This document shows, piece after piece, positions 15,907 to 30,989 of a stretch of 32,951 nt of DNA (positions within the stretch are counted from its first letter, which is position 1; every line of letters starts with the position of its first letter). The stretch covers positions 1-32,951 of the forward strand of contig JAGSHC010000047.1 in the NCBI GenBank assembly GCA_023954745.1, given 5' to 3'. The translations under genes and the position numbers were made by a program. Below the pieces are notes generated by a model. That model saw only the letters and a program-made list of their open reading frames with translations, was not told the origin of the DNA and made no database searches. Origin of the DNA: Deltaproteobacteria bacterium. Lineage in GTDB: Bacteria > Myxococcota_A > UBA796 > UBA9615.

Positions 15907-17031
15907 CTAGGCGCGCTCGACCCACTTGCTCAACACGCCGTGGAAGTGCGCGGCGGCCTCTTCCTCTTCGTGCAGGCGCTGCATCCGCACCGCATCGGTG
16001 GCCACCCCCTCCTGGAACCACTTCAGGATGTGCAGGTCCTCCCGGAGGATGTACCGAGATGCCCCCCAGGTGGCATAGGCCCTCGCGAGCTCGATGCCCC
16101 GAGCCCCCTTGCGACGACAGAAGGCGTAGTGCAGCTCGCACTTGTCGGCCTCCACCGGCCAGACCTGCATCACCGTCAGGTGATAGGGCAGCACGTTGAT
16201 GAGGAAGTTGGGGAAGATCAGGTACTTGTGCAGCGAGCTCTTCTGCTTGCGGGTGTAGGGGCCCCCGCGGCTGCACTTGTCGTCGAGCCACCCGCGCCAT
16301 CCGTAGGGAGCGATGTGCAGCGTCTGCCGGGTGTTGTCCCCGTAGGAACGCATGTCCGGCCCGGTGGCGACGTGCGGGGTCACGGTGCTGCTGTGCACGA
16401 AGGGCACGTGATAGAAGTCCGTGGCGTTCTCGAGCACCGCCTTCCAGTTGGTCGGCAGGGGGAACACCTTCTCCTGGATGGGCCGCATCTGGGACAGCTC
16501 GTAGGGAGCCAGCTCCTCGGCGATGCCCCCCAGGCTCTGCTCCAGCTCCGGCGCATCCTTGCTCAGGGTGATCCACACGAAGCCCAGGAGGACCCGAAGC
16601 CGCACCCGGTGGAGGTGCATCTTCTCGCAAGCGAGCTCCTCGAACCCGTCGGGTCGAGGCACGTGCTCCAGGTGTCCGTCGAGTCCGTAGCGCCAGCCGT
16701 GGTAGCGGCAGCGGATCTCGGGGGTGTTGCCCGCTCCCTCCAGAAGCCGGGAGCCGCGATGGAGGCAGGTGTTCTGGAACGCCCGCAGCTCGCCTTGAGC
16801 ATCCCGCACAATGATGACCGAGGCCCCGAACTGCTCGAAGCAGAAGAAGTCACCCGCCTTTGCCACCTGCCAGAGCGGACAGGCGACAACCCAGGCCTTG
16901 CGGAAGACGCGGGTCTTCTCGACGTCGAGGAACTCCGGGTCGGTGTACCGCGTACCGGGGACCGAACGCATCAAGCCCGGCTCCCGCAGGCGCGTGACTT
17001 TGGGGTGCTCGGATCGTCTGGGGTTGGCCAC
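15907..17031 (-). CDS. Rieske non-heme iron oxygenase, alpha-subunit type
   Basis: A 374-residue protein. The N-terminal Rieske domain has CLH (Cys89, His91) and CRYH (Cys108, His111) ligands for the 2Fe-2S cluster. The catalytic domain has ENATDFYHVPFVH (201-213), giving Asp205 for electron transfer and His208/His213 for mononuclear iron. Such enzymes hydroxylate, demethylate or desaturate aromatic, amine or sterol substrates and need a separate reductase, which is not seen nearby. Similarity in the first 60 residues (TRYTDPEFLDVEKTRVFRKAW) resembles the choline/carnitine/phenylpropionate alpha-subunit group. The substrate is open. The GTG at 17031 is chosen because a TATCAT hexamer ends 7 nt upstream; ATG 16971 is an alternative. 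It is divergent from a sigma-54-driven small peptide gene. Confidence 0.92.
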   Translation of the reverse strand: MANPRRSEHPKVTRLREPGLMRSVPGTRYTDPEFLDVEKTRVFRKAWVVACPLWQVAKAGDFFCFEQFGASVIIVRDAQGELRAFQNTCLHRGSRLLEGAGNTPEIRCRYHGWRYGLDGHLEHVPRPDGFEELACEKMHLHRVRLRVLLGFVWITLSKDAPELEQSLGGIAEELAPYELSQMRPIQEKVFPLPTNWKAVLENATDFYHVPFVHSSTVTPHVATGPDMRSYGDNTRQTLHIAPYGWRGWLDDKCSRGGPYTRKQKSSLHKYLIFPNFLINVLPYHLTVMQVWPVEADKCELHYAFCRRKGARGIELARAYATWGASRYILREDLHILKWFQEGVATDAVRMQRLHEEEEAAAHFHGVLSKWVERA

Positions 17032-17038
17032 TTGCCCG

Positions 17039-17044
17039 ATGATA
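17039..17044 (-). promoter_or_regulatory. -10 hexamer TATCAT, leaderless spacing to the Rieske gene
   Basis: TATCAT on the minus strand ends 7 nt before the GTG at 17031; no Shine-Dalgarno precedes that codon. Confidence 0.5.
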
Positions 17045-17092
17045 ACCGGCGCAGCGCGACCCTCGCCGAACCCCCGCCCATGGCTACTACGC

Positions 17093-17120
17093 AAGAAGTA
17101 GTGGGCAGGCCCTACTTCTT
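17093..17120. promoter_or_regulatory. Long dyad AAGAAGTAG-...-CTACTTCTT, possible enhancer-binding-protein site
   Basis: Left arm AAGAAGTAGTGGG (17093-17105), loop CAGG, right arm CCCTACTTCTT (17110-17120): 12 pairs with one bulged T. A further CTACTAC half-site lies at 17084-17090. It sits about 120-150 bp upstream of the sigma-54 promoter at 17238, the normal position for an activator enhancer, and inside the Rieske 5' region. It is followed by TTCC on the plus strand, so a hairpin terminator or attenuator is an alternative reading. Confidence 0.45.
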
Positions 17121-17237
17121 TTCCGGTTTGGGGCGTGGCCGGCTCCAGTCCTGGAGACGAGGTGCCGAGCGGTCGATCGACGAGGATCCCTTTGAGCCCT
17201 TGCTCACCCGCCTCCTTTGGCCCCGTCGCTGAGCTGG

Positions 17238-17252
17238 TGGCACGGCGCTTGC
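17238..17252 (+). promoter_or_regulatory. Sigma-54 promoter TGGCAC-N5-TTGC
   Basis: TGGCAC (17238-17243), 5-nt spacer, TTGC (17249-17252): an exact match to the -24/-12 consensus of RpoN promoters. The expected transcript start is about 17263, 27 nt before the ATG at 17290. This is the only such match I noticed in the window. It implies ATP-dependent activation by an enhancer-binding protein. Confidence 0.7.
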
Positions 17253-17289
17253 GACGGAAGGAGGCACGCAGCCAACCAAGGCCGCGAGG

Positions 17290-17481
17290 ATGGGCAAGAC
17301 CATGGAAGCCACTCGCACGCTCGAGCAGCCGACGTCCTGGAACCCCCTCGACCTCACGGACGAGAGCGTCCCCTCCATCACTGGAGCCGCCAACGACGGC
17401 GGCCCCGGCTTCCTCCCCGACCGCGACACCCGGCCGGAGCTGGCGCCCGTGGACGTGCCCTCCACGCCCCGGAGCGAGTAG
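17290..17481 (+). CDS. Small peptide (63 aa) with a double-glycine-like leader, sigma-54 driven
   Basis: A 63-residue product, acidic and Pro-rich, no Cys, no signal peptide or helix. Third codon positions are almost all G or C, better than the opposite-strand frame, so the plus frame looks genuinely coding. Residues 22-33 read LTDESVPSITGA. Counted back from Ala33 this gives Leu -12, Thr -11, Val -7, Ile -4, Gly -2 and Ala -1, close to the LS-x-x-EL-x-x-I-x-GG leader rule of peptides exported by C39-peptidase transporters; the Glu is at -9 instead of -8 and there is a Pro at -6. The predicted core would be residues 34-63. No C39 transporter or modification enzyme is seen in this window apart from the divergent Rieske oxygenase. 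ATG 17302 is an alternative start. Function unknown. Confidence 0.55.
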   Translation: MGKTMEATRTLEQPTSWNPLDLTDESVPSITGAANDGGPGFLPDRDTRPELAPVDVPSTPRSE

Positions 17482-17495
17482 CACCGGGAGCTCGG

Positions 17496-17509
17496 GCCGC
17501 CGGGGCGGC
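17496..17509 (+). terminator. GC hairpin after the small peptide gene
   Basis: GCCGC-CGGG-GCGGC, a 5-bp stem with a 4-nt loop, 14 nt after the stop at 17481. No T tract. Confidence 0.35.
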
Positions 17510-17590
17510 ACCTGAACGACGAACGAGGGCCTGGCCGAGCTGCTCGGCGCTCTTCATTGCGATGTGCGCCTCAACTCGGTGAGAAGCCGT

Positions 17591-18433
17591 TCAGCGCTCG
17601 TTGCAGACCGTGTCGAAGAAGGCCTTCATCGGGGGAAACAGACCCTCGGGGACCCACGCGTGTTCGTAGGCGTACTCGAAGTCGGTCTCCGTCACCTGAT
17701 CTGCGTCAATCCACATGTCGATGACGTCCTGCACTGCCGCGCGGGGGACGATCGGGTCCTCGTCGTCGTGGATGAAGAGGCCCGCGCACTCGCTGTCCCA
17801 GGGGGTCTCGGGCCACGGGCTGAAGGGGTTGGACCCTGCGTGGTTGACGATGCTTGCCAGGCGCTCGCCGTGGGCCCAGCCCAGGTAGGTGGCGGCGCGT
17901 CCACCCGCTGACGAGCCCAGCGCGTGCACCCGGTCCAGATCGATGTCGTATTGCTCACCCAGGAGATCGAGGGAGGCGTTGAAGAAGTCCGCGTCCTCCT
18001 GGGAGTCCGTCCAGTTGATCTGGCTGTTGCCGGTATCTCCGGGGTTGGCGAGATAGACCACCCAGCCGTGCTCCTCGGCCCAGTCGATCATCCCCAGCTG
18101 CGCGAAGAGCGCCTCGTTGTCCGCGCGGGCCAAGGGCATGCGGCGCCCCACCAGCAGGAGCACGGGCATGGGTGTCACGGCGGCGCTGCTCGGCGCGTAG
18201 GCCAGCATCTCGTACTGGGAGCTTCCGTCGCCGGGTCCAAAACCAGGGACCGAGTACCAGGTGGCGACATCCATCGCCCCACCGCTCCCTCCCGAGGAGA
18301 GCCCGCACGCCGCGTCGTCGTCGTCCCCCAGGTCGTCGTCGTTCGCGGCGTCGTCGTCATCACCCGCCCCCGGCTCGGCGCAACCGGCAGAGACGAGGAG
18401 GCAGGAGAGCAAGAAGAAGAGAGATGAGCGCAT
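17591..18433 (-). CDS. Lipoprotein alpha/beta hydrolase (esterase/depolymerase-like) with poly-Asp linker
   Basis: A 280-residue lipoprotein: lipobox VSAGC (Cys18), then an acidic tether GDDDDAANDDDLGDDDD (24-40). The catalytic domain has the nucleophile elbow ALGSSAGGRAA with Ser175, an acid in DDEDPIVP (Asp226) and a His in YEHAWVPEG (His258). This is the layout of LpqC/poly-hydroxybutyrate-depolymerase-like and feruloyl-esterase-like enzymes, which cut esters outside the cytosol. Substrate unknown. It should be membrane-tethered and secreted. ATG 18433 has no Shine-Dalgarno; a TACCTT hexamer ends 6 nt upstream. Both neighbours on the right run in the same direction but the gap of 148 bp holds its own promoter. 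Confidence 0.85.
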   Translation of the reverse strand: MRSSLFFLLSCLLVSAGCAEPGAGDDDDAANDDDLGDDDDAACGLSSGGSGGAMDVATWYSVPGFGPGDGSSQYEMLAYAPSSAAVTPMPVLLLVGRRMPLARADNEALFAQLGMIDWAEEHGWVVYLANPGDTGNSQINWTDSQEDADFFNASLDLLGEQYDIDLDRVHALGSSAGGRAATYLGWAHGERLASIVNHAGSNPFSPWPETPWDSECAGLFIHDDEDPIVPRAAVQDVIDMWIDADQVTETDFEYAYEHAWVPEGLFPPMKAFFDTVCNER

Positions 18434-18439
18434 GCCGAG

Positions 18440-18445
18440 AAGGTA
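18440..18445 (-). promoter_or_regulatory. -10 hexamer TACCTT, leaderless spacing to the lipoprotein esterase
   Basis: TACCTT on the minus strand ends 6 nt before ATG 18433. The same hexamer precedes trkA and the PlsC gene. Confidence 0.6.
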
Positions 18446-18526
18446 GCCAACCAGCCACCACCATCAAACGCCACCGAGGCAGGAACTGAGGGTCAGGGGC
18501 GTCGAGGGCAAGGAGCCACGAGGGAC

Positions 18527-18543
18527 GCGTATTGACAATACGC
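18527..18543. terminator. Inverted repeat GCGTATT-GAC-AATACGC
   Basis: Perfect 7-bp arms with a 3-nt spacer, about 40 nt downstream of the stop of the Cys-rich protein gene (minus strand). It could be its terminator stem or an operator for the downstream esterase gene. No T run on the minus strand. Confidence 0.4.
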
Positions 18544-18581
18544 AACCGAGTGAGCGACGCCGCCATCGGCGCCCCTGGACC

Positions 18582-19793
18582 TCAGTTCGCGACGCAGCCG
18601 CATCCGCAGGCGTTGCTGAAGAAGTCCTCGTTCGGCGGGCAGACGTAGCGAAGGACCGAGCACTGAGCCACCGATGTCGCCACGTACGTGTAGCGCGGGT
18701 CGGTGGGGTTGGCGCACGCCTGCCAGCTGCAGCTGAACTCGAAGCAGCTGAAGAAGCCCGGCACCATCGGGTGAATGACGTTGCCGCAGTCGTTCTGGGC
18801 CGTCGAGTCGCTCATGCACCACATCTCGGTGTGACAGGCCCCGGCGGGATCCGCGGGCACGTTCGTCTGCCACTCCTTGCAGAACAGCCCGTCGTCGCAC
18901 TGCAACGCCGCGATACCACCGCAGGTGGCGCCAACTCCGTCGCCCCACTCGTAGTCCACCTCAGCGTCGCCCGACTGGAAGCCGAAGGCCCGCATCGTCA
19001 GCGGCCGAGTGACGGCTCCTGCGATCTCGATGCTCTCGTGGCCCCAGTTCCCGTTGATGCCGTTGTAGCCGGACCAGGTGATGGTCATGCCGTGATAGGT
19101 CGTCTGCTGCTGGCCGGCCCCGCTGAGGATTCCGCTCGGCCAGGCCACGATCTCCGTCCCATCGATGGCGTCGATGAGCTGCACGTCGAGGTCATTGCCC
19201 CCGCCCGCGTTGAGCTCGATCTCCACGTTCACCTTGCCCAGGGGGATGTCGCCGATGGTCTCGACGCCGTTCTGGGGGATGAACTGCTGGAAGTTCCCCT
19301 CCCCGATCTCGTAGCAGGTGGGGTCTCCCGAGAACGCGTAACTGACGTCCGAGTCGCCGGCCTGGTAGCCAAACGCCTTCATCACCAGCGGCCGGTTGGT
19401 CGTGCCGTTGATCTCGATGGACTCGTTGCCCTTGCCGTCGGACGTCTGGTCGCCGTTGTAGCCAGACCAGCAGTACTCGACCGCGTCAAAGGTCGTGCAG
19501 CCATAGGAGGGACCGTTCAGCAGGCCGTTGGGCCACGCGATGATCTCCGTGCCCGTCCACACGTCGATGAGCTGAATGTCGACGTCGCGCGGTGACTCGA
19601 GGTCGATGGACACGCCCACCTTGCCCTCGGGGATCTCGCCCACCTCGGAGAAGGTGCCCTGGGGCACGAACTCGACAAAGCTGCCGCTGCCCGAGGAACA
19701 ATCGCCACCCCAGTCAAAGCCGGCGACGGCGGGAGTGGGGGCGAGGCTGGCGCACGCAAGGGCGGCGACAGAGGCGATGAGAATGCGCGACAT
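18582..19793 (-). CDS. Secreted protein: two tandem copies of a beta-type domain plus a Cys-rich tail
   Basis: A 403-residue protein with signal peptide (cleavage near AVA, residue 24). Residues about 38-153 and 167-282 are two copies of one domain. Each copy has (F/Q)FVPQ-like start, G(E/D)IP-GKV-V-I-L, D(I/L)DVQLID-TGTEI-AWP-G, WSGYNG, ESIEI-G and RPL-M-AFG-Q-GD--V-Y. I do not recognise the family; it looks like an all-beta lectin-like or PPC-like fold. Residues 291-403 form a Cys-rich region with 14 Cys, starting CGGIAALQCDDGLFC, a motif familiar from Myxococcota surface proteins, and ending CGCGC. It is probably disulfide-rich and outside the cell. The start at 19793 is preceded by GGAGAG. 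Binding partner unknown. Confidence 0.82.
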   Translation of the reverse strand: MSRILIASVAALACASLAPTPAVAGFDWGGDCSSGSGSFVEFVPQGTFSEVGEIPEGKVGVSIDLESPRDVDIQLIDVWTGTEIIAWPNGLLNGPSYGCTTFDAVEYCWSGYNGDQTSDGKGNESIEINGTTNRPLVMKAFGYQAGDSDVSYAFSGDPTCYEIGEGNFQQFIPQNGVETIGDIPLGKVNVEIELNAGGGNDLDVQLIDAIDGTEIVAWPSGILSGAGQQQTTYHGMTITWSGYNGINGNWGHESIEIAGAVTRPLTMRAFGFQSGDAEVDYEWGDGVGATCGGIAALQCDDGLFCKEWQTNVPADPAGACHTEMWCMSDSTAQNDCGNVIHPMVPGFFSCFEFSCSWQACANPTDPRYTYVATSVAQCSVLRYVCPPNEDFFSNACGCGCVAN

Positions 19794-26253: not shown

Positions 26254-28071
26254 ATGACCTGTCTGCCCGCTCTGCTCCGCGCGCTGCTCCTCGCAATCGC
26301 GATGGCTGCGAGCGGCGCGCTCGTGGGCTGCGACCAGACCCTGGACACGGGACCAGGTGGGGTCGAGTTGCCTGGCCCAGGGACCGCTGGAGACGACGAC
26401 GACTCCACGGACAACGGGCTCGACCCCAACGCCGACGCCGATGGAAACGGCATCCCCGATGCCCAGGAGGGCGACCCGAACGCGGACACCGACGGAGACG
26501 GGACCCCCAACTACCTCGACGACGACGACGACGGCGACGGCATGAGCGACGCCGACGAGATCGACGGCAACCCCGGAACGCCCCCCGACACGGACGGCGA
26601 CGGCACGCCGGACTACCTGGACCCCGACTCCGACAACGACGGCATCGGCGACGCCATCGAGGGGGACCGCGACCCCGACGGCGACGGCGTCCCCAACTAC
26701 CAGGACCTGGACTCAGACGACGACGGAATGTCCGACTCGGAAGAGGGCCAGCTGGGACCCGGCGACGCCGATGGCGACGGCTTCCTGGACTTCGAAGACC
26801 CCGACTCCGACAACGACAGCTTCCCCGACGGCGTCGAGGTGACCATGGGGCTCGACCCCTTCTCGCGGGACACCGATGGCGACGGCTTCAGCGACCTCGC
26901 CGAGCTCGAAGTGGGCACCGACCCCACCGACCCCGGCTCGGTCATCGAGGGCTTCTACGCCGAGCTCACCGCCCGAGACCAGGCGACGATCACGGTGCCG
27001 TTCACCCCCGAGATCCTCCAGGCCGACGTGCTGTTCCTGCTGGACTCCACCTGCTCCATGACGGGCGTGCTCAACACCATGGCGGGCAACTTCTCCCAGG
27101 TGGCCTCGGGCATGACCATTCCGGACGTGTCCATGGGCGTCGCCGAGTTCAACGACTACGTGTACAGCGACTGGTTCACGGTGATGGGGCTCGCATCGGC
27201 CGGCGACAAGCCGTTCCGCCTCAAGCAGCAGGTGACCTCCAACTACGGCTCGGTCCAGCAGGCGCTGGGGCAGCTGTACGTGCGCGACGGCGCCGACGAG
27301 CCCGAGTCCTCCATGGAGGCGCTGTGGCAGGCGGCGACCGGCGCGGGCTACGACCAGGACTGCGACAACAACTACGACGCCCAGACGGACGTGCCGTCCT
27401 TCCTCACCGGTGGCTCCGCCCAGTTCCCTGGTGCCTTCGGCGGCGGGCTCGGCGGCGTCTACAGCCCGGGGGTGCCGGGCACCGGGCCCCTCGGGGGTGC
27501 GGGCTTCCGCTCCGGCTCGGTCCCCATCATCGTCTACACGACCGACAACCTCATGCGAGACCCTCACGCGGGCTTCGGCACCCCCAGCGGCTGCAGCAAC
27601 CCAGCGGGGAGCGGCGATGTAGCCAGCGCCGTGAACGCCATTGGCGGCAAGCTCATCGGCATCGGGACCAGCATCCTGCCCATCGCCCAGATGACCTCCC
27701 TCGCAAACGCCACGGGCTCGCTGGCCGACATCAACGGGGACGGGGCCGAGGAGCCGCTGGTGTTCCAGGGCTCCTCGGGGGCCACGGTGGACTTCGTCAT
27801 CGACGGGGTCGAGGCCATCGCGGGTGGCTCGCTGTGGGACCTCACCCTCGAGGTGGACGACGCCCCCTACGACTTCGTGCTCTCCACGACCCCCGAGGTG
27901 CATAGCAACGTGCAGATAAACACCGAGATCACCTTCGACGTGACGCTGTTCCCCGGAGTTCCCCAGGGGAGCGGAGAGCAGGTGTTCGTGTTCCCGATGC
28001 AGCTGCTGGGCGACGGCGTCTCCGTGCTCGCCGAGTGGGAGCTCGTCCTGGTGGTGCTGCCGGGGTCCTGA
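26254..28071 (+). CDS. Lipoprotein with TSP3-like Ca-binding repeats and a VWA domain
   Basis: A 605-residue lipoprotein: lipobox ALVGC (Cys26), short GDDDDS linker, then about 180 residues of thrombospondin type-3-like Asp repeats ([41 protein letters not shown]). These usually bind calcium and form a stiff stalk. A von Willebrand A domain follows with the MIDAS motif DSTCS (Asp264-Ser268), then a C-terminal beta domain. The VWA insertion region is Gly-rich ([14 protein letters not shown]). The protein should be surface-exposed and may mediate adhesion or matrix contacts; function is inferred from domain type. The frame opens at 26203, but ATG 26254 is the start of the lipoprotein signal and has GGAGG upstream. 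No T-rich terminator is seen before trkA. Confidence 0.88.
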
Positions 28072-28103
28072 GGCCTCTCATACGTCGAAACGCCGCGGTC
28101 CTG

Positions 28104-28109
28104 TACCTT
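28104..28109 (+). promoter_or_regulatory. -10 hexamer TACCTT, leaderless spacing to trkA
   Basis: TACCTT ends 6 nt before ATG 28116; no Shine-Dalgarno is present. Confidence 0.6.
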
Positions 28110-28115
28110 CGGCCC

Positions 28116-29519
28116 ATGGCGCGGAAGAAGCGCGGGCAGCGCAGCGAGAACATCCTCATCCTCGGCCTCGGTGGCGTCGGGTACTACCTGGCCAAGAGGC
28201 TGTCGCACGAGGGCTACGCGATCACGGTCATCGAGGCCGACGCAGAGAAGCTGCGTCGCGCGGACAGTGAGATCGACGCGCGCCTGATCCGCGGAGACGC
28301 GTTGTCCTACGCCTCGTACCGCGAGGCGGCCATCGAGGACATGGACTACCTCATCGCGGTGACGGACAACGACGCCGTCAACGTGTTCGCGAGTCAGGTG
28401 GCCGAGAAGGTAGGCGTTCGTTGCAAGATCGCCCGGGTGCGCACCGTCGAGGTCATGTCCGACGACGCGATCCTCGGCCCCGACGACTTCCACATCGACA
28501 TGGTGATTCGGCCCGGAGAGCTCACCGCCCGCGAGATCGCGCGGCTGCTCCAGATGCGGTCCGGCAACGTCGTCATCGAGGTCGGAGAGGGCCAGCTTCA
28601 GGTGATGGCCGTCCGCGTGGAGGAGAACTCACCCCTCTCTCACCGGACGCTCAAGCAGCTGTCCAAGGAGTACGAGAGCTTCAACTTCCGTGTCGTCGCC
28701 ATCGCCCGGGGCATCAACACGCTGATCCCCGGCGGCGACATCGAGATCCTGCCTTTCGACCACGTCTACATTCTCGCCCCGTCGGACCGCATGGACGAGC
28801 TCATGAAGATGGCAAACGTCACCGATGAGGGCCCGCACCGAGTGATGATCGTGGGCGGAGGCCTGGTGGGGCGCCGCGTCGCGCAGCTCCTCGAGGGCAC
28901 CTGGCCAGTCACCCTCGTCGAACGCGACGAGCACCGCGCCGAAGAGCTGACCTGGTGTCTCAAGCGCACCACGGTGCTGCACGGGGACGGCTCCCACGCC
29001 GACACCCTGATCCAGGCTGGCTTGCTGAAGATGGACACCATCATCTGCGCAACCAGCGACAACGAGACCAACATCATGACCAGCGTCATGGCGAAGCACC
29101 TCTTCCACGACCGGAAGGGGAACAGCGGCGTCGGACGCACCATCGCCCTCGTGAACCGCGAGGAGTACCAGGTGCTCGCGTCGACCATCGGCGCCGACAT
29201 CGTGCTCAACCACAAGGTGCTCGCTGGGAACCGCATCCTCAAGTACGTGCGCCGAGGCCATCTGCTCAACGTGTCCCACCTGCACGGCTGCGACGCCGAG
29301 GTGGTCGAGCTGGTCGCCGAGCCCCACAGCAGCATCACCCGGCGCCCCCTGGCGGAGGTCGGCACCATGAAGGACCGCATCATCCTCGCCGGCGTCATGC
29401 GAGAGAGCGGGTGGAAGGTGGCTATCGGGTCGACGCACATCCGCGCTGGAGACACCGTCGTCGCGATCTGCGCATCGGACCGTTTGCCGGACCTCCAGCG
29501 CCTCTTCCGCCACACCTGA
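28116..29519 (+). CDS. trkA: TrkA potassium uptake regulator, two RCK repeats
   Basis: A 467-residue cytosolic protein, close to the 458 residues of E. coli TrkA. Two RCK halves: TrkA_N Rossmann motif GLGGVGYYLAKRL (17-29) then TrkA_C, and a second GGGLVGRRVAQLL near residue 245 then a second TrkA_C. It binds NAD(H)/ATP and gates the TrkH channel. It forms an operon with trkH, starting 12 bp later. The start is the ATG directly after the TACCTT hexamer; the open frame extends upstream to 28035 inside the end of the VWA gene and is not used. Confidence 0.96.
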   Translation: MARKKRGQRSENILILGLGGVGYYLAKRLSHEGYAITVIEADAEKLRRADSEIDARLIRGDALSYASYREAAIEDMDYLIAVTDNDAVNVFASQVAEKVGVRCKIARVRTVEVMSDDAILGPDDFHIDMVIRPGELTAREIARLLQMRSGNVVIEVGEGQLQVMAVRVEENSPLSHRTLKQLSKEYESFNFRVVAIARGINTLIPGGDIEILPFDHVYILAPSDRMDELMKMANVTDEGPHRVMIVGGGLVGRRVAQLLEGTWPVTLVERDEHRAEELTWCLKRTTVLHGDGSHADTLIQAGLLKMDTIICATSDNETNIMTSVMAKHLFHDRKGNSGVGRTIALVNREEYQVLASTIGADIVLNHKVLAGNRILKYVRRGHLLNVSHLHGCDAEVVELVAEPHSSITRRPLAEVGTMKDRIILAGVMRESGWKVAIGSTHIRAGDTVVAICASDRLPDLQRLFRHT

Positions 29520-29531
29520 GCCCCTGACCCC

Positions 29532-30989
29532 GTGAACTACCGCGCCATCGCCCACGTCTTCGGGACCCTGCTCCTCGTGACCGCAGCCGCGATGCTGTTC
29601 CCGGCCATCTGCGCGCTCTTCTATCCCAGCGACGACGACCTGCCGGCGCTCATCCAGGCGGCGCTCCTCACCGGCGCCGCCGGCTTCCCGCTCTGGTACC
29701 TCTTCCGCGACCCCGGCGAGCTGGGGACCCGCGACGCCATCTTCATCGCGGCCTTCGGCTGGATCGTCATCTCCGCGGTCTCGGCGCTCCCCTTCGTACT
29801 GCACGGCGCCATCCCGTCGTTCACCGACGCCTTCTTCGAGATGATGTCGGGCTACACCACCACCGGCGCGACCATCCTGACGGACATCGAGGCGGTCCCC
29901 CATGGACTGCTGTTCTGGCGCAGCGAGACCCACCTCCTCGGAGGCATGGGGTTCATCACCCTCGCGGTGCTCGTCATGCCCCACGGTATGGGGGGGGTGC
30001 GGATGTTCCGCGCCGAGTCGAGCCCCGGTCAGGTGATCACGGGGGAGAAGTTCCTGCCGCGCAACCGCGACGCGATGGTCTACCTGTGGGGGATCTATCT
30101 CGCCCTGAATGCGGTGCAGGTGGTCCTCCAGTGCCTGGGAGGCATGAACCTCTTCGAGTCGCTGTGCCACGCATTCGGCACCATCTCGACGTCCGGCTAC
30201 TCGCCTCTGGGCGGCAGCATCGGCCAGTACGAGAGCGCCTACTTCGACTGGATCATCATCGTGTTCATGTGGCTGGGCGGCGTGACCTTCATGCTGTTCT
30301 ACGCGCTACTGCACGGGGACTGGCGCACGGTGCTGCGGAACACGGAGCTGCGCTGGTACGTGGGCTTCACGCTGTTCTTCTGCCTCGGCGTCGCCGCGGC
30401 GCTGTTCGCCGCTGGTACCTATGGCCCCCTCGACTCCCTTCGCTTCGCGTCGTTCCAGGTCATCTCATTGCTCACGACCACGGGCTTCTCCACCGCCGAC
30501 TACGAGCTGTGGTCTCCACCGGCCCAGATGCTCCTCTATGCGGTGTGTTTCGTCGGCGCGTGCGCGGGGTCCACCACGAGCGGGATCAAGGTCATCCACT
30601 ACGTCATCCTGTGGAGATTCATGACCGCGGCGCTCAAGAAGATCTTCTTCCAGCCCCTGGCCATCATCTCGGTGCGCGTCGACGAGCGCCCCGTGGACAA
30701 CCTCATCGTGTACCTGGCCGTCTGCTACTTCATCGTGAACATCGTGATGGTGCTGATGGGGGGCATGGTGATGGCCGTGTCCGACGGCATGGACCTCACT
30801 ACGGCCATGAGCAGTGTCATCGCCTGCCTGATGAACATCGGACCGGGCTTCGGCGATGTCGGCCCAACGGAGAACTTCGCCTTCATCTCCCCCTTCGGGA
30901 AGTGGTTCCTGTCCTGGACCATGCTGGTGGGCCGGTTGGAGATGTTCACCGCCCTCGTCGTGTTCTACCCGAGCTTCTGGAGAGACTGA
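29532..30989 (+). CDS. trkH: TrkH potassium channel/transporter subunit
   Basis: A 485-residue integral membrane protein of the Trk/Ktr/HKT superfamily. The four pore loops are visible: SGYTTTGATIL, HAFGTISTSGYSPLG, SLLTTTGFSTADYE and LMNIGPGFGDVGP, each with the filter glycine. FWRSETHLLGGMGFITL is the conserved loop after pore 1. It takes up K+ under control of TrkA. GTG start 12 bp after the trkA stop with no separate promoter suggests translational coupling. The next gene overlaps its stop by one base. Confidence 0.96.
   Translation: MNYRAIAHVFGTLLLVTAAAMLFPAICALFYPSDDDLPALIQAALLTGAAGFPLWYLFRDPGELGTRDAIFIAAFGWIVISAVSALPFVLHGAIPSFTDAFFEMMSGYTTTGATILTDIEAVPHGLLFWRSETHLLGGMGFITLAVLVMPHGMGGVRMFRAESSPGQVITGEKFLPRNRDAMVYLWGIYLALNAVQVVLQCLGGMNLFESLCHAFGTISTSGYSPLGGSIGQYESAYFDWIIIVFMWLGGVTFMLFYALLHGDWRTVLRNTELRWYVGFTLFFCLGVAAALFAAGTYGPLDSLRFASFQVISLLTTTGFSTADYELWSPPAQMLLYAVCFVGACAGSTTSGIKVIHYVILWRFMTAALKKIFFQPLAIISVRVDERPVDNLIVYLAVCYFIVNIVMVLMGGMVMAVSDGMDLTTAMSSVIACLMNIGPGFGDVGPTENFAFISPFGKWFLSWTMLVGRLEMFTALVVFYPSFWRD

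Follow-up and report, generated by a model that had tools for sequence, protein, structure and literature searches.

Two described systems bear on the locus analysed here. Promoters recognised by sigma-54 (RpoN) share the consensus TGGCAC-N5-TTGC[T/A], and the genes for P-II and glutamine synthetase are a textbook target of this factor. Double-glycine leaders, as found in class II microcins and bacteriocins, are recognised and cut by C39-peptidase transporters, with GA being an accepted cleavage site and the hydrophobic residues at -4, -7 and -12 being known recognition positions (PMC9746304; PMC10885120). A first-pass annotation of the window (the whole stretch of DNA analysed, 32,951 nt, which is one complete contig out of the 481 that make up a draft genome of 7.1 Mb) had placed both systems at a single small ORF, proposed to be transcribed from a sigma-54 promoter and to encode the precursor of an exported signalling or antimicrobial peptide. 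Our analysis supports the promoter half of this interpretation, and not the leader/RiPP half. A -24/-12 element is followed at approximately 50–64 nt by a coding ORF, which has a syntenic homologue in one other genome of the genus, and we consider it somewhat more probable than not that this is a genus-restricted orphan small-protein gene under sigma-54 control, with a disordered, non-exported and motif-binding product. Overall, we regard the locus as an orphan small gene of an ordinary kind, whose promoter is unusually clear.

Table 1. Features at and around the small ORF; positions are those of the window
Feature	Position	Strand	Remark
Inverted repeat AAGAAGTAG-N10-CTACTTCTT	17093–17120	.	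divergent intergenic region
Sigma-54 (-24/-12) promoter TGGCAC-GGCGC-TTGC, TGGCACGGCGCTTGC	17238–17252	+	exact match, top matrix score
Small ORF, 63 aa (start ATG 17290) or 59 aa (start ATG 17302)	17290–17481	+	soluble, disorder-like, without known domain
Conserved block 1, W-[ND]-P-L-D-L, residues 17–22	17338–17355	+	alignment with sister-genome (G001) homologue
Proposed double-glycine-like segment LTDESVPSITGA	17353–17388	+	not conserved, probably fortuitous
Conserved block 2, GFLPDRDTRPELAPV, residues 40–54	17407–17451	+	alignment with sister-genome (G001) homologue
Terminator-like hairpin GCCGAGCTGCTCGGC then GCTCTTCATT	17534–17548	+	pattern scan
Alpha/beta-hydrolase-like lipoprotein gene	17591–18433	-	right of small ORF
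Secreted protein of ~400 aa, without family	18582 to ~19780	-	right of small ORF

The exact TGGCAC-N5-TTGC match claimed in the first-pass annotation is indeed present on the plus strand and is the only one in the window, with the GG and GC ten bases apart, which meets the spacing of sigma-54 promoters. In 100 dinucleotide shuffles of the window such a match occurred on average 0.05 times, with 5/100 shuffles containing at least one, and the sigma-54 matrix score of the element (19.7 bits) was well above that of the next-best place in the window (14.1 bits). The predicted transcription start is near 17263, and the distance of 52 or 64 nt from the element to the start codon is typical of the sites in this genome.

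The promoter is located inside a 270-nt divergent intergenic region, with a Rieske ring-hydroxylating oxygenase gene (PF00355, PF00848) as left neighbour on the minus strand. A longer, 534-aa frame of the Rieske gene seems to overlap the promoter, but was rejected as an artefact since DNA similarity with the sister species stops at 17010, which places the true start of the Rieske gene, as judged from this comparison, near 17031. The same intergenic region contains an inverted repeat with perfect 9-bp arms, A-T-rich in DNA of 68% GC and approximately 120–145 nt upstream of the -24 element, which may bind an activator or a repressor, or may belong to the control region of the Rieske gene. As a shared regulator site it was set aside as little informative, since AAGTAG-N8-12-CTACTT has no other occurrence in the genome and none in the sister genome. 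Beyond the two genes to the right of the small ORF (Table 1) lie a gene for a cyclophilin-type lipoprotein and one for a protein with MopE metal-binding motifs. The secreted protein of approximately 400 aa has two internal repeats (GDCSSGxGxFxE..VPQ...DVDVQLIDxxxGTEIIAWPxGLxNG), lacks a Pfam family, and is 58–64% identical to its counterparts in two relatives (G001 and G004).

The genome encodes RpoN (PF04552, one match) and 26 sigma-54 activator domains (PF00158), none of the latter in the window. Nineteen exact -24/-12 sites are present genome-wide, versus eight for the same pattern read backwards as a control, and at 14 of the 18 sites other than the one studied here an ORF of coding composition opens 28–69 nt downstream, at an ATG that has a Shine-Dalgarno-like match, versus 0/8 of the control sites (one-sided hypergeometric chance ~3e-4). 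Among the genes behind these sites are those for P-II, with glutamine synthetase (glnA) following it, for a sigma-70 family factor, and for numerous small or envelope proteins. In the sister genome, exact sites are likewise found at gene starts, and three target genes are common to both genomes by sequence (L058/L084, L007/L098 and L069/L090). This enrichment at gene starts, the rpoN gene, the activators and the syntenic homologue together support the claim that a real small gene lies behind a sigma-54 promoter.

Further exact sigma-54 sites precede ORFs of 39–73 aa, with five in the genome of the window (L056, L058, L062, L064 and L068), none of which has a Pfam match, and two in the sister genome (L084 and L099). 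The L058 ORF encodes a 42-aa small lipoprotein with a poly-Asp tail, and both its sequence and its sigma-54 site are kept in the sister species (L084). The ORFs at L056 (G000:C161 near 11680, 73 aa) and L099 (G001:C512 near 22007, 64 aa) are weakly similar, and each is oriented divergently to a gene whose product contains a sigma-54 activator domain. On contig G000:C286, an activator domain is encoded approximately 0.8 kb from the 39-aa ORF at L064.

A single homologue of the small ORF was detected; it is encoded in G001, the sole further genome of the genus (L010, 1504–1710, GTDB contig CALAGR010000064.1; 47% protein identity, E 9.4e-6). It is syntenic, being flanked by the Rieske gene on one side and the genes for the 400-aa secreted protein, the cyclophilin-type lipoprotein and the MopE-motif protein on the other, while between these shared neighbours each species carries its own inserted gene or genes. 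Searches of four more family members, 71 genomes of the class, a 284-genome sample of the phylum, GTDB contigs and plasmids gave no credible match besides this homologue; a match in G132 (E 6.6e-4) was dismissed as chance, as it falls within a 586-aa ORF in another frame. In G004 the neighbouring 400-aa gene is kept and the peptide is absent, with a different gene (143-aa ORF, 2359–2790) adjacent. Neither Pfam nor NCBIfam gave a match to the small ORF. Having a syntenic counterpart in one close relative but neither more distant homologues nor a family match, the gene shows the features by which orphan small proteins are recognised.

The alternative which survives best is that the gene is real but that its -24/-12 match is fortuitous or newly acquired, with main expression from another promoter; we regard this as unlikely, yet as deserving more weight than the other rivals of the favoured reading. 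No site above chance is present upstream of the homologue, where the best candidate is TGGCTC-N5-ATGC, and the homologue sits behind an 84-aa ORF with overlapping start and stop, with which it may be co-transcribed. Furthermore, the reversed pattern still gives its eight exact matches against 19, and the base after TTGC in the window is G where T or A is expected. Against this, the position, strand and spacing of the site are exactly those of the other sites of the genome, it is placed between divergent genes, and a TTGCG is likewise found ahead of the sigma-70-family gene at L063. The missing site in the sister genome weakens the case for sigma-54 control without excluding it, because promoter turnover is common. 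In that genome (L029:9628–9980) a possible 31-aa hydrophobic ORF lies ahead of the homologue in addition to the 84-aa ORF, which has a coding-like GC3. The arrangement of these two ORFs and the homologue suggests a small operon that is absent from the window, where the 84-aa ORF has no counterpart.

The claim of near-saturated GC third positions in a 63-aa ORF was borne out, with GC1/2/3 of 0.66/0.56/0.94. Two in-frame ATG codons are available and the choice of start codon is uncertain, as the one at 17290 has AAGG 8 nt upstream, while the one at 17302 aligns with the start of the homologue. We consider that the ORF probably represents a genuine gene and most likely encodes a protein. It is considerably less probable, and also less so than expression from another promoter, that the ORF is spurious and yields no protein, with the conserved DNA representing a small RNA, an antisense ORF or the 5′ region of a divergent gene. 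Long open frames arise by default in high-GC DNA, and positions 16000–19000 are overlapped by 32 ORFs of 40 aa or more. In addition, differences between the two sequences are nearly even over the codon positions (22/19/24 in 55 codons), and one antisense frame aligns almost as well between the species (score 82 versus 94 for the sense frame). However, the GC1>GC2<GC3 pattern of coding DNA is seen in the sense frame only, with an antisense composition that is not coding-like, the sense-frame score is far above that of shuffled sequences (mean 27, maximum 54), ATG starts with Shine-Dalgarno spacing are present in both species, and Rfam gave no match. The coding signal is thus good in base composition and weak in substitution pattern, and the near-even codon-position differences together with an NG86 dN/dS of ~0.66 between the two ORFs mean that purifying selection is only weakly indicated by the comparison.

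Conservation between the two proteins is concentrated in the two blocks of Table 1, the second of which has the consensus G-[FI]-L-x-D-x-D-T-R-P-E-[LI]-x-P-V. Outside these blocks a finely conserved interaction surface is argued against by the difference in charge (pI 4.1 versus 8.5). Neither a signal peptide nor a lipobox was found in the small protein. Hydrophobic segments are lacking too, the most hydrophobic 15-residue stretches of the two homologues having mean hydropathies of 0.29 and -0.61. An AlphaFold2 model from the two-sequence input, which makes this a weak test, has a mean pLDDT of 63.7 and no secondary structure, and fits a disordered protein. The lack of a signal, hydrophobic segment or transporter points to a cytosolic location.

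For the favoured reading, an orphan small gene under sigma-54 control, we propose that RNA polymerase with RpoN would wait at the -24/-12 element until an enhancer-binding activator opens the promoter. This would yield a short mRNA ending near 17550, which would be monocistronic given the terminator-like hairpin downstream of the ORF; the pattern scan that detected this hairpin is weak, with two hits in the region versus a shuffle mean of 0.4. The product would be an acidic, unstructured protein of 59–63 residues which is neither cleaved nor exported. The combination of disorder and short conserved motifs leads us to guess that it might bind and adjust a partner protein inside the cell via WxPLDL and GxLxDxDTRPE, in a condition-dependent manner. 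The protein could also be one of a set of unannotated 39–73 aa proteins under sigma-54, forming a small-protein arm of the RpoN regulon and acting perhaps as a cytosolic regulator of a sigma-54-linked process, although we put this forward only tentatively and regard it as rather unlikely; in both species, at least one further member of the proposed set has an activator gene as its divergent neighbour.

Maturation or export by an unrecognised route other than C39, for example as a modified peptide with GxLxDxDTRPE as conserved C-terminal core, is improbable. Conservation is indeed highest in the C-terminal block, and the sequence is short and rich in Gly, Asp and Pro, but among the window genes scanned Pfam recognised no enzyme of peptide modification, no leader protease and no peptide transporter beside the small ORF, the neighbours differ between the two species, and the export signals mentioned above are lacking. 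A lasso-type layout, judged by eye, was rejected as well, as a Gly core preceded by Thr at -2 is lacking and lasso genes were not recognised.

The proposed double-glycine leader comprises residues 22–33, leaving a 30-residue remainder, and its Leu-12, Val-7, Ile-4, Gly-2 and Ala-1 are all present as described. In six-frame translations of the window, the pattern L-x4-[hydrophobic]-x2-[hydrophobic]-x-G-[GAS] turns up approximately 0.01 times per 60 aa, rising to 0.023 times if the first position is relaxed, and is therefore uncommon by chance but easily found by a searching eye. At this segment the homologue reads WDPLDLGG---PRATRRRDLDSGSGILRDTDTRPE, with a 3-residue gap and neither GG nor GA at that place. 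A conserved leader with a variable core had been expected, and the opposite is seen in this one homologue: WxPLDL and GxLxDxDTRPE lie on either side of the proposed cleavage site, the cleavage region is the variable part, and the best-conserved block sits inside the proposed core. The first-pass annotation had itself named the lack of any homologue conserving the GA site as counting against its reading, and this is what was found, on one homologue. A C39-peptidase ABC transporter, which it had advised looking for elsewhere in the genome, did not come to light either, as Peptidase_C39 (PF03412, E <= 1e-5) was found in 0/6 family genomes, including that of the window, which is rated 100% complete, while the same search gave matches in 8/14 control genomes. 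Among the window genes scanned, Pfam recognised no transporter apart from a Trk potassium-uptake pair (28035–30989), and no lanthionine or lasso gene, and NCBIfam gave no precursor match. Thus, although GA and the hydrophobic residues at -4, -7 and -12 agree with described leaders, a bacteriocin, RiPP or signalling precursor cut after residue 33 by a C39-peptidase transporter and exported is very improbable, and the resemblance is probably due to chance.

If the favoured reading is correct, one well-delimited and conditionally expressed orphan protein joins the sigma-54 regulon of an uncultured lineage, and several other unannotated small genes may be expected behind the same promoters, while the evidence is against a new antimicrobial or signalling peptide. 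Compared with class II microcins and bacteriocins, the protein shares the length class, the hydrophobic -12/-7/-4 positions and the GA at -2/-1, but differs in the absence of a C39 transporter from the genome searched, in its unconserved leader site, and in a core that is conserved rather than variable. The likeness to known sigma-54 promoters is closer, as both elements and their spacing are exact, RpoN and activators are encoded in the genome, and the distance to the start codon equals that of the other sites; the differences are the G after TTGC, the lack of an activator gene in the window and the lack of conservation in the sister species. With lineage-restricted small proteins it shares a length of <70 aa, the absence of a database family, restriction to one genus, rapid divergence and disorder, and the clear sigma-54 promoter is the sole feature that sets the present gene apart from them.
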